64,000 bases of DNA from NCBI RefSeq assembly GCF_000265525.1, contig NC_018015.1:1152322-1216321 (forward strand). The letters are read 5' to 3'. The notes beneath the pieces were generated by a model. It was not told the origin of the DNA, did not search any database, and worked only from the letters and a program-made list of their open reading frames with translations. The position numbers and the translations under genes were made by a program. The first letter of the stretch is position 1. Every line of letters begins with the position of its first letter. The stretch is from Thermococcus cleftensis. GTDB taxonomy: Archaea; Methanobacteriota_B; Thermococci; Thermococcales; Thermococcaceae. This document shows, piece after piece, positions 44,676-57,598 of this stretch.

Positions 44676-45563
44676 TTACTCCTCCGTTTCCCCTCCTTTC
44701 ATCTCTTCGAGCTTCTTCGCGAGCTTTTCCGCTATTTCCATGAATGCCTTGGCCGCGGGCGTGTCCTCGTAGAGGACTATCGGTATTCCCGCGTCGCTGG
44801 CTTCCCTGGCCTTGAGGTCTATCGGCACTTCTCCAAGGAAATCCACACCCTCCTTCTCGGCGAGCTTTTTGCCCCCACCCTTTCCGAAGAGGTCGATCTC
44901 GTTGCCGCAGTGCGGGCATATGAGGTAGCTCATGTTCTCGACGACCGCTATGTAGGGAACCTCCATCTTCTTCATCATGTTTACAGCCTTTCCGGTGTCG
45001 AGCAAGGCAACCTCCTGGGGAGTGGTGACTATAACCGCCGCATCGAGCTGTAGACTCTGGGTCACGGTGAGTATCTCGTCGCCAGTTCCAGGGGGGAAGT
45101 CGATTATCATGAAGTCTAGGGAACCCCACTTGACGTCGCCGAGGAGCTGCTTGATGGCCTTTGTTACAAGAGAACCGCGCCAGATTATCGGCTGATCCTC
45201 CGGGACGAGGAAGCCCATGCTCATGACCTTTATCGGGGTCGTCTGGCCAAGGAAGTCGTTCATCGGCGGTATCATTTCGAACCTGCCGTCCTCGAGCTTC
45301 TCGGCCAGAACCTCCGCCTTGTCCACGCCGAGCATCTTGGCGACGTTCGGCCCGTGTATGTCCGCGTCGAGTATTCCAACGAAGTAGCCCTTCTTGGCAA
45401 GGGCTGCGGCGAGATTGACCGCGACGGTGCTCTTTCCAACGCCGCCCTTACCGCTGAGGACGGCCACCTTGTAGGTCCACTTCTCCTGCTTCTCCTTTAT
45501 CCTCTGGGTGAGCGGGTCGGCACCGAGGCCGCCTATGTTGAGCGTGGGAGCCTTTATCGTCAT
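44676..45563 (-). CDS. Mrp/NBP35-family iron-sulfur carrier ATPase
   Basis: The 295-residue ATPase has a deviant Walker A VLSGKGGVGKST, switch region LDADIHGPNVAKMLG, Walker B DFMIIDFPPGTGDE and a C-terminal cluster-binding ENMSYLICPHCGNEI (CxxC). These proteins dimerise and carry a 4Fe-4S cluster to target proteins. The start at 45563 follows GGAGGTGGAGGAA; the longer open frame lies in the leader. This cell uses many Fe-S enzymes, including POR/VOR, Tes and UDG in this window. Confidence 0.92.
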   Translation of the reverse strand: MTIKAPTLNIGGLGADPLTQRIKEKQEKWTYKVAVLSGKGGVGKSTVAVNLAAALAKKGYFVGILDADIHGPNVAKMLGVDKAEVLAEKLEDGRFEMIPPMNDFLGQTTPIKVMSMGFLVPEDQPIIWRGSLVTKAIKQLLGDVKWGSLDFMIIDFPPGTGDEILTVTQSLQLDAAVIVTTPQEVALLDTGKAVNMMKKMEVPYIAVVENMSYLICPHCGNEIDLFGKGGGKKLAEKEGVDFLGEVPIDLKAREASDAGIPIVLYEDTPAAKAFMEIAEKLAKKLEEMKGGETEE

Positions 45564-45632
45564 TTCCTCCACCTCCGGCTTAGGTTGGCCTAAGGGGCTT
45601 AAAAGCTTTGTCCCAAAACTTGACAATGTTAC

Positions 45633-46394
45633 TCAGATTTGGGTATCCAAGAGTGGAACCACCGTTGGAACGCCCCTGACCTCCCCCATCGCTACGTTCA
45701 CACCGTAGACCTCGCGGAAGAGCTCTTCGCTGAGAACATTAAAGCCTCCGTCAGCGATTATTTTTCCGTCCTTCATGAAGATGAACCTCCTGGCAAAGCG
45801 GAGGGCTAGGTTCACGTCGTGCATCACGGTGATAACGGTTTTTCCCTCCCTCGAGAGCTCCTTCGCGAGCTGCATAACCTCGAGCTGACTTTTAACGTCC
45901 AGGTTGTTGGTAGGCTCGTCCATTATTAGTACTCGCGGCTCCTGCGCGAGGGCCCTCGCTATGTTCACCTTCTGGAGCTCTCCTCCGCTGAGGCCCCTCG
46001 TTCTCCTGGGGGCCAGGTCCCATATCCCCAGTCTTTTGAGGGCCCTTTCGACAGCCTCGATGTCCCTCCTGGACGGCCTGAGCCCCATGTACGGCCTTCT
46101 GCCGAGGAGAACCGTGTCAAAGACCGTCATGAAGCCTGGCTCTGTCCTCTGGGGAACGTAAGCGAGTATCCTGGCCAGCTCGTTCCTCGAGTACTCGCCG
46201 ATCGGCTTTCCAAAGACCTCGACCCCACCGCATTCCAGGATTCCTGCAATGCACTTCACTAGGGTGCTCTTGCCTGCCCCGTTCGGTCCAAGGACGGCAA
46301 CAAATTCACCCGTCTCAATCCTCAGGCTCACCCCCCTGAGAACTTCCCGCTCGTCGTAGGAGAACCTCAGGTTCTCAGCCTCCACCGCCTTCAT
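45633..46394 (-). CDS. ABC transporter ATPase, iron-complex/cobalamin uptake type
   Basis: The 253-residue ATPase has Walker A GPNGAGKST, signature RGLSGGELQKVNIARAL, Walker B VLIMDEPTNNLD and the switch His in TVMHDVNLALR. It fits the FecE/BtuD group for metal-chelate uptake. It is the last gene of the FmdE-SBP-permease-ATPase operon and overlaps the permease by 4 nt (ATGA). Confidence 0.92.
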   Translation of the reverse strand: MKAVEAENLRFSYDEREVLRGVSLRIETGEFVAVLGPNGAGKSTLVKCIAGILECGGVEVFGKPIGEYSRNELARILAYVPQRTEPGFMTVFDTVLLGRRPYMGLRPSRRDIEAVERALKRLGIWDLAPRRTRGLSGGELQKVNIARALAQEPRVLIMDEPTNNLDVKSQLEVMQLAKELSREGKTVITVMHDVNLALRFARRFIFMKDGKIIADGGFNVLSEELFREVYGVNVAMGEVRGVPTVVPLLDTQI

Positions 46395-47431
46395 CTCCGG
46401 CCCTCCATTCTCACCAGGAGGTAGATGAACGCCGGGGCGCCGAGGAATGAGGTCACTATGCCCACAGGGAGCACCGCGGGGGAGATGATGAGTCTCGCGA
46501 GAGTGTCAGCGGTCACGAGCAAGAGCGCGCCCGTGAGGGCCGAGAGTGGAATCAGGAAGCGGTAGTCGCCTCCGGCGATCAGCCTAACTGCATGGGGTGC
46601 TATGAGGCCTACAAAGCCTATTACTCCGACGAAGGCAACGCTCACTGCCGTTATCAGCGCCGCCAGGAACGTCGAGACGAGGCGGATCCTTTCCACCTCC
46701 ACCCCGACGCTCTTCGCCACCTCGTCCCCCACCGCGGAGGCGTTCAGGTCCCAGCGTCTCAGAAGGAAGTATGTGAAAACAGGTGCGAATGTCAGGAACA
46801 TTATCGCGTCCTCCCTCCAGGTGGCCCGTCCGAGGTCTCCGAAGCTCCAGTATACCATCGCGGCGAGCTGGAGCTCGTCGGCGAAGTACTGTACGAGGGT
46901 CGTCATGGCGACGAAGAGCGAGCTCATGGCCACACCGGCCAGGATTATTGCCTCCGGGCTAAGCCCCCTGAGCCTTGCAAGTGTCAGGATCACCGCGGTG
47001 GCGCTTATGGCTCCGATGAAAGCGAAGAGGACGACGGCGTAAGGGTTGTCGAGTGAAATCCTTCCGGAACTTTCGGCGTAGCCTGCGCCGAGGAGTATGG
47101 CCAGCGATGCCCCGAACATGGCACCGTGGGAGACGCCCATCGTGAAGGGAGTCGCCAGGGGGTTTCTGAGGAAGCCCTGCATGACAGCGCCGGCTATGGC
47201 CAGGGAGGCACCGACCAAAAGACCCGCGACTATTCTCGGTAGCCTTATGTTCCAGACGATGAGCCTAGTACTATCCGTTCCGCCGCCGAGGAGGGCATCA
47301 ACGACTTCCCCAACCGTCAGGTGGTAGGCCCCGTGGGAGAGGGAGTGTAGGCTGACCAGAACGATGGAAAGAAGGAGGAGGAAGCCCATGAAGACCCTTC
47401 TGGCCACGTAGTCCCTGTAATCCATGTCCAT
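46391..47431 (-). CDS. ABC transporter permease, FecCD/BtuC type
   Basis: The 346-residue permease has about ten spans and the FecCD motifs IVWNIRLPRIVAGLLVGASL, AGAVMQGFLRNPLATPFTMG and FVGLIAPHAVRLIAGGDYR. It is the membrane subunit for the binding protein encoded upstream, whose stop codon it overlaps (TGATG). No ribosome binding site of its own is evident, consistent with translational coupling. Confidence 0.93.
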   Translation of the reverse strand: MDMDYRDYVARRVFMGFLLLLSIVLVSLHSLSHGAYHLTVGEVVDALLGGGTDSTRLIVWNIRLPRIVAGLLVGASLAIAGAVMQGFLRNPLATPFTMGVSHGAMFGASLAILLGAGYAESSGRISLDNPYAVVLFAFIGAISATAVILTLARLRGLSPEAIILAGVAMSSLFVAMTTLVQYFADELQLAAMVYWSFGDLGRATWREDAIMFLTFAPVFTYFLLRRWDLNASAVGDEVAKSVGVEVERIRLVSTFLAALITAVSVAFVGVIGFVGLIAPHAVRLIAGGDYRFLIPLSALTGALLLVTADTLARLIISPAVLPVGIVTSFLGAPAFIYLLVRMEGRR

Positions 47432-48549
47432 CACGGTGAGGTCGGTAGTGAGTACTTGACGGTCCCGTTGGAGAGGTCTATCCTTCCGAAGCCCCCGAAC
47501 TGTTCCTTCATGGCTTCGTAGACGGGCTTTCCGACGAGGAACGTGTATATCTCGTCGGCCTTCTCCTCGGGATCAACGTCGCGGAAGCGCTCGGGGTAGA
47601 GCACCTTGCCTATGAAGTACGCGTCGGCCAGGGCGGTTCCTATGTTCGTGGTGTAGAAGTTGTAGGGGAGCAGGCCGTAGAGGTTGCCTTCCTTCACGGC
47701 CCTCAGCGAGCCGTAGAAGTCCGGGTTCCTGGAGTAGTCATCGAGGACCAGCTTGAGGCCGCCCTCGTCGATGAATATGTAGTCCGGCTGCCACTCGAGG
47801 AGCATCTCCTTGTCTATGGACTTGTGACCTTCTCCGAGCTCGTCGGCTACGTTTTCGGCGTTAACCGCTCTGAACGGCGGATAGCCTGCCTCAGTGCTCT
47901 CTATCCCGTGGGCACCCTTGTAGCCTATACCTCCGACGTAGACCCTCTTCGGCTCGACGCCTTTCGTCCGGTTCATCAGGTCCTCCTGGATCGACTTTAT
48001 GAACTCCGTGATCTCCCTGGCCCTCTCCTCCCTTCCGAGTATCCTGCCGGCGAGCTCTATGGAGGCGAACAGCTCCTCGTCATCAAAGGTTCCCAGGCTT
48101 CCGTAGCTGAGCACCACGACTGGAATTCCCGTCTTCTCCTCTATCTCGTCGGCCGTTTTTCCGTCCACGTAGGTGATGAAAATCACGTCCGGCCTGAGCT
48201 TCACGATGGCCTCGAAGTCGGGCAGTTTCCCCGGCCCGCCGGGTCCGACGCTCGGGAGGTCTTTGAGCTCCGGGTGGGCCATTATGTACGGCCTCCCGAA
48301 GGAGTAGCGCTTCTCGAAGTCCTCGACGCCAACCACCATGTCGCTCGCGTTGAGATAGACTATTAACCTGAGCGCACCGGGACCAACTGCTATAACTCTC
48401 TCAACGTTCTTCGGCACCTCCACGCTCCTTCCGAGGGCATCGGTGACCGTTAGGGTGGCGTTTCCGTTTTCGGAATTGGCACCGCTTCCGGTGCAGCCGC
48501 TGGCGAGAACCACCACAAAAATGAGGATCAGCGCGATGAACTTCCTCAT
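47431..48549 (-). CDS. Lipoprotein substrate-binding protein of the FecBCD-type transporter
   Basis: The 372-residue protein has a lipobox, VLASGCTG, at the end of its signal peptide, so it should be lipid-anchored. Two periplasmic-binding lobes (PBP type III) are linked by a long helix; [29 protein letters not shown] and [20 protein letters not shown] are typical. Ligand is probably a metal chelate, tungstate-like or corrinoid compound; the sequence does not decide. Second gene of the operon, 1 nt after FmdE. Confidence 0.9.
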
Positions 48550-48550
48550 T

Positions 48551-49246
48551 TCAGCACCCCCTCCGCTCGATCTCCACTATTCCCCGCCCGACCACGGCCA
48601 GATAGGCCTCTCCGGCACAGCGGAGGCACAGCGGTTCGCCGTTCACGTGAACCGCTCTCGTTTCCATGACCAGCTCCCCGCACTTCGCGCAGCGGACGCT
48701 CTCCACTATCGGCGCCTGCTCAATCGGGGGAACCCTTACGCGCTTGATCTTGAATTCGTCCCTCGGGAGGTGAAGCATGGCTTTTGCAACCTCTTCCCAG
48801 AGCTCCCAGAGGCGCTTTCGCTCCTCCTCACTCCCCTTGCGCTCCCGGACAACCCTATTGAAGAGCTCGGTTGTTCCGGGGGGATAGTACTTCCTCAGCC
48901 TCTCCGCGTCTGCGTAAACCCTGACCCCCTCCCAGGTGGAGCGCTTGACGAGGGTGAGGGCGGTTTTTCCGAGGTCGAGGTAGATGAGCGAGTTGTTGCC
49001 CAGCGTACAGCCTGTCGCCACCTGAACGCCGTCGGTGAAGCAGCTGTTGATTTCGACTATCGCGAGTAGGGACTCATCGACACTTGAGGAATGATCCAGC
49101 CTGCCCACCCCCAGCTCCTCCATGGCTATCAATGACGCCCTTATCCCGAGGGCGAGGTACGGGCAGACGTGACCGTGGAACTCCCTGGCGTATTCGAGTA
49201 TCCCCTCCGCGTTTCCCTCCGCCACCAGCCTGTTGAGCGTGAGCAT
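48551..49246 (-). CDS. FmdE-family metal-binding protein
   Basis: The 231-residue protein has an N-terminal FmdE domain with the motif [16 protein letters not shown] and a Cys in [18 protein letters not shown], plus a C-terminal zinc-finger-like domain with CAKC and CLRC. FmdE was named from tungsten formylmethanofuran dehydrogenase operons, but that enzyme is not encoded here. Its position as first gene of a metal-chelate ABC uptake operon suggests metal or cofactor handling. Start ATG is preceded by GGTGATAC. The promoter lies under a SurR-type site. Confidence 0.88.
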
Positions 49247-49302
49247 TGTATCACCAATTTGGGGTTGAGTAGCACGATTTTTAACAATTTTTTAATCTTG
49301 GT

Positions 49303-49325
49303 GTTATCAACGAAAGGTTGATAAC
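49303..49325. promoter_or_regulatory. Full SurR-type site upstream of the FmdE operon
   Basis: GTTATCAAC-GAAAG-GTTGATAAC is a perfect 9-bp inverted repeat with a 5-nt spacer. It is exactly GTTn3AAC-n5-GTTn3AAC, the extended recognition pattern described for the redox sensor SurR of Pyrococcus. On the minus strand it lies upstream of a TATA-like GATTAAAAAATTG (about 49284-49297), a position expected for activation in the absence of elemental sulfur. Confidence 0.75.
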
Positions 49326-57488: not shown

Positions 57489-57598
57489 CGGCCATATTTT
57501 CTCCCTGGGGTTTATAGCCTTTTGGAACGGCCGGTTTTCAACCTGAAGTTTGGGATACGCCTTTAAACTCCAAAAGCGAGCTATATGCGGTGGTCCCT

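Follow-up and report, generated by a model that had tools for sequence, protein, structure and literature searches.

The extended motif of the sulfur-responsive regulator SurR has been described as GTTn3AACn5GTT (PMC8595942, PMC12162507), and SurR sites are reported to activate transcription when located upstream of the BRE/TATA element and to repress it when they overlap that element (PMC12401011). For the nickel regulator NikR, the consensus GTGTTAC-N13/14-GTAACAC has been published (PMC545781), and the fecDE promoter of Helicobacter pylori was proposed as a possible NikR target (PMC5140060). Regarding nickel import in Thermococcales, a survey from 2009 located Nik or CbiMNQO systems in only two of four members of the order, yet all four use nickel (PMC2667541). 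Moreover, the FHGHxC motif of the FmdE homologue from D. hafniense bound Zn and Ni, and most genes of the FmdE family (PF02663) adjoin genes for metal-ion transporters (PMC2954224).

Here we describe a locus of Thermococcus cleftensis in which these elements come together. It lies in a window of 64,000 nucleotides, the whole stretch of DNA that was analyzed, and comprises fmdE, three transporter genes and a compact promoter (Table 1). From the sequence, genome context and conservation observed at this locus, we consider it quite likely that the promoter of an operon for nickel uptake carries a SurR site placed for activation, together with a probable NikR operator.

Table 1. Features of the fmdE operon and its promoter (positions in the window).
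Feature	Position	Strand	Description
ABC ATPase gene	45633..46394	-	
FecCD-type permease gene	46391..47434	-	
Solute-binding lipoprotein gene	47431..48549	-	Peripla_BP_2
fmdE	48551..49246	-	PF02663 protein; FHGHxC metal site and C4 zinc finger
NikR-like 28-bp element	49248..49275	-	GTGCTAC-N14-GTGATAC; between TATA and the start codon ATG
Probable BRE/TATA of the operon	49277..49295	-	TTAAAAAT and A-rich BRE; from sequence and alignment of orthologous promoters
SurR-type site	49303..49325	.	GTTATCAAC-GAAAG-GTTGATAAC

Gene content of the operon

A Peripla_BP_2 lipoprotein, a FecCD permease and an ABC ATPase are encoded in one operon, as expected for a FecCD-type ABC importer, and together with fmdE they form a four-gene unit that recurs in Thermococcales, similar gene sets being present in Archaeoglobus, Thermofilum and many bacteria. 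The FmdE product matches PF02663 with 140 bits (cut-off of 22.9), and its metal ligands, FHGHxC with a further Cys and the C4 zinc finger, are invariant in 24 sequences. Relatives of fmdE were found in 58 of the 94 family genomes. Partial or broken copies were also observed: the gene is truncated at one locus (L167), persists as a fragment 3' of nikR at another (L175), and is degraded at a third (L176), where it adjoins an otherwise intact transporter.

Two further observations concern the genes of this unit. The binding protein matches PDB entry 2etv with an E-value of 2e-164 (next match, 3e-18); we take this entry to be Thermotoga maritima TM0189 (locus TM0189-0191), in which case the match would suggest a transfer between archaea and Thermotoga. 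Six base pairs after the ABC ATPase gene, an ApbC/Nbp35-type Fe-S carrier gene (44676-45626) is found here and at two related loci (L171 and L172), and it is absent from this position in more distant relatives. Its product is closest to Fe-S carrier proteins, not to the Mrp homologue 3vx3, and, as this Mrp/ApbC gene lies 3' of the operon only in close relatives, it was not retained as an operon member.

Nickel as the predicted cargo

Several lines of genome context connect the operon with nickel. Among the 57 Thermococcaceae fmdE loci on which all promoter counts are based, nine carry nikR on the same strand, 91-155 bp 5' of fmdE. In two distantly related organisms, a deltaproteobacterium (L074) and a Desulfurococcaceae archaeon (L041), nikR likewise stands next to the operon. 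T. cleftensis itself encodes a NikR with NikR_C and RHH_1 domains. In 663 kb of fmdE loci, palindromes close to the NikR consensus (at most one mismatch, N13-15) occur five times against 0.2 expected; two of them lie 5' of FecCD-fmdE operons (L075 and L086), and one is located 5' of an fmdE locus after which a peptide/nickel-type ABC transporter is encoded (L055).

The NikR-like element of the T. cleftensis promoter retains the overall length of 28 bp and the N14 spacer, with degenerate halves that are not cleanly inverted. Its strict form was detected at 39/57 fmdE loci (0.005 expected) and its loose form at 48/57 (0.13 expected), in counts uncorrected for relatedness and compared with shuffles that preserved base composition only. 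The right half overlaps the Shine-Dalgarno sequence GGTGAT, and its role in translation may account for its conservation; greater weight rests on the left half, on the spacing and on the parallel with cbiM. In the promoter of cbiM, a nickel/cobalt transport gene, a SurR-like site lies upstream of the TATA element and a NikR-like repeat downstream (L137:1502-1524; loci L207-L236), and the cbiM promoters of relatives contain AACn5GTT in 27 of 29 cases and the NikR-like repeat in all 29, inverted in 23. A relaxed NikR-like pattern had three matches in the genome, two of which are the fmdE and cbiM promoters; since the cbiM promoter had been inspected before the pattern was relaxed, its match is no independent test, and the third match (L237) has no evident nickel link. 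Overall, these features suggest that the 28-bp element is probably a NikR operator.

The distribution of the two transporters was also compared. Among 64 family genomes that are at least 98% complete, 17 have fmdE and lack a full cbiM, and two have neither. The avoidance between fmdE and cbiM runs in the expected direction and is weak (Fisher p of 0.26, 0.11, 0.04 and 0.07 at completeness cut-offs of 0, 90, 95 and 98%, respectively, uncorrected for relatedness), and it was not taken as proof.

The main competing explanation accepts SurR control and holds that the importer carries an iron siderophore, cobalamin or molybdate/tungstate, which we regard as unlikely. The FecCD/BtuCD family indeed transports many cargoes, and sequence models do not name this one: no NCBIfam cut-off was reached by the transporter genes, the best-scoring models being those for B12, heme and ferric complexes. 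Moreover, one PDB entry matched by the binding protein is labeled an iron(III) transporter, and another is HI_1472, presumably the molybdate protein MolA. Nevertheless, the adjacency of nikR in Thermococcaceae and in two distant taxa, the NikR-like palindromes 5' of bacterial copies and the promoter plan common to cbiM all argue for nickel. Hence, of the options left by the original prediction (nickel, iron or a cofactor), nickel is favored as the likeliest cargo of the operon.

The SurR-type site upstream of fmdE

Upstream of the operon, the perfect inverted repeat that had been noticed before is present exactly as described, with two 9-bp arms flanking 5 bp (GTTATCAACGAAAGGTTGATAAC). Its four-arm form, GTTn3AACn5GTTn3AAC, had been put forward as the extended SurR motif, a point to be amended, as the published form ends with the third arm. 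The stretch kept in relatives is 49303-49319, which reads AACn5GTTn3AAC in the direction of fmdE, and alignment of the orthologous promoters indicates that the outer GTT, which makes the form a double one, is a local addition to this conserved core. Conservation at the same position, one of the checks proposed at the outset, was evident: in 51/57 loci, GTTn3AAC occurs between -90 and -40 from the fmdE start codon (0.8 expected from the base-composition shuffles), in most cases at positions -64 to -67. Of the 57 loci, 40 carry the long motif and 13 the double motif, for which the shuffles predict 0.04 and none, respectively. The gene located 5' of fmdE encodes the POR beta subunit in 11 loci, is nikR in nine, and is neither in 37 within the flanking DNA examined; as the site is present whatever the upstream gene, it follows fmdE and not its neighbor. 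This position-specific conservation is the strongest support for the site.

The double form is expected 0.01 times per 64-kb window (dinucleotide-preserving shuffles), and a pattern search of the 1.95-Mb genome returned two places against one for the backwards control, the second place being approximately 70 bp 5' of a sulfhydrogenase operon at 583278. Across the 94 family genomes, however, the double form showed no clear excess over the backwards pattern, so that its genome-wide counts alone prove little, and its enrichment was dropped as an argument. The 17-base long motif is enriched genome-wide, with 37 matches against 10 for the backwards pattern.

The regulator itself is encoded in the genome as a SurR with C24xxC27, its best PDB match being the chains of PF0095 (3e-93). 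Matches to the long motif are found at surR/pdo, hypA, hypC-hypD, hypF, the sulfhydrogenase genes, an mrp/mbh-type cluster, fdh/frh-like genes, an NSR-like flavoprotein gene and cbiM (SurR, HypA, HypC and CbiM were confirmed by Pfam, and the other neighbors were recognized by eye from their sequences), and the hydrogenase, hyp, surR/pdo and similar genes are a known kind of SurR target. The motif lies 5' of BRE/TATA at surR, the sulfhydrogenase genes and the frhA-like gene, 3' of a TATA-like element at pdo, and near the start codon at the NSR-like gene, positions that match the published rule for activation and repression. At fmdE, the aligned orthologous promoters and the predicted TATA element place the site upstream, in the reported activating position, in agreement with the original prediction. 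With a CxxC-containing SurR encoded, the motif conserved and the same motif present at hyp and hydrogenase genes, we judge the repeat to be a real SurR site, as first proposed, and by sequence criteria the fmdE operon joins the SurR regulon.

Other motif-like features were noted. Directly after the proximal AAC, an ACC/ACT extension (49295-49302) is conserved in the orthologous promoters, possibly as a further half-site or as part of the BRE, and the bases inside n3 (nRT) are constrained as well; to our knowledge, SurR does not need such an extension or fixed n3 bases. Elsewhere in the window, two long SurR-like motifs overlap (AACn5GTTn3AACn5GTT, 57526-57550) in the intergenic region of two divergent genes, one HflX-like and the other carboxymuconolactone-decarboxylase-like.

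The constraint on n3, which in the orthologous promoters gives mostly GTTnRTAAC with ACC after it, could also reflect another regulator with a similar motif, and transcriptome data from Palaeococcus pacificus would fit either this or repression by SurR: contrary to our expectation, nickel/cobalt transport increased with sulfur, as did HypF. In that organism MBH1 was also up, whereas it was down in P. furiosus (PMC6981617). Both possibilities together appear improbable, more so than a different cargo: AACn5GTTn3AAC is the published long motif reversed, its spacer resembles those of the hyp, surR and cbiM sites, and the site lies upstream of BRE/TATA, whereas that of pdo lies downstream of its TATA-like element. 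A chance repeat without function, despite the double pattern not clearly exceeding its control across the family, is very hard to reconcile with conservation at a fixed position in 51/57 loci with differing upstream genes.

Proposed regulation and relation to known systems

Taking the site as a SurR target, we propose that, when sulfur is absent, reduced SurR would bind upstream of the BRE/TATA element (approximately 49277-49295) and help to recruit basal factors, raising transcription of the operon together with that of the hydrogenase and hyp genes. As the products of these genes need nickel, the importer would be made mainly during hydrogen-based growth without sulfur. Elemental sulfur would oxidize the CxxC of SurR, binding would be lost and expression would fall, while plentiful nickel would lead Ni-NikR to block initiation from the 28-bp element. 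FmdE may act as a nickel chaperone or sensor. A wider proposal, to which we give even chances, is a coincidence-gated nickel supply, in which the unrelated CbiM-type and FmdE-FecCD importers share one plan (SurR as activator upstream of TATA, a NikR-type operator downstream) and are switched on without sulfur and at low nickel, and in which FmdE serves a widespread nickel importer of the FecCD type as its dedicated nickel chaperone or sensor.

If true, the SurR sulfur switch would govern not only the hydrogenases but also the provision of their metal; moreover, a candidate nickel importer for Thermococcales is named, and the uncharacterized, widespread FmdE family gains a testable role in nickel handling. 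Within a comparison outside which the primary genome-wide SurR studies lie, no published expression data for the fmdE operon were found, and the composite SurR/NikR promoter is possibly new.

The promoter resembles SurR-activated promoters of Pyrococcus and Thermococcus, such as those of the hydrogenases and surR, in carrying GTTn3AAC or the long motif upstream of BRE/TATA in a genome that encodes a SurR with CxxC. Unlike them, it serves a metal importer and has a NikR-like element after TATA; its second GTT stands approximately 13 bp more distant from TATA than that of several other SurR-type promoters, and SurR binding is a prediction. With the NikR-repressed nikMNQO operons of delta-proteobacteria (PMC545781) it shares a two-half-site element of 27-28 bp with a 14-bp spacer near the start codon, as well as a nikR gene near fmdE in several relatives; however, its half-sites are not cleanly inverted, one lies over the Shine-Dalgarno sequence, and the transporter is of the FecCD and not the ECF type. 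NiuBDE of H. pylori (PMC5140060) is likewise a FecCD-type ABC importer, with a proposed role in nickel uptake, but no FmdE partner has been reported for it, and for the present operon a role in nickel transport is a prediction. Finally, the protein described here agrees with the FmdE family (PMC2954224) in its FHGHxC motif, further Cys ligand, C4 zinc finger and neighboring metal transporter, whereas it is without link to formylmethanofuran dehydrogenase and is, in several genomes, linked to nikR.
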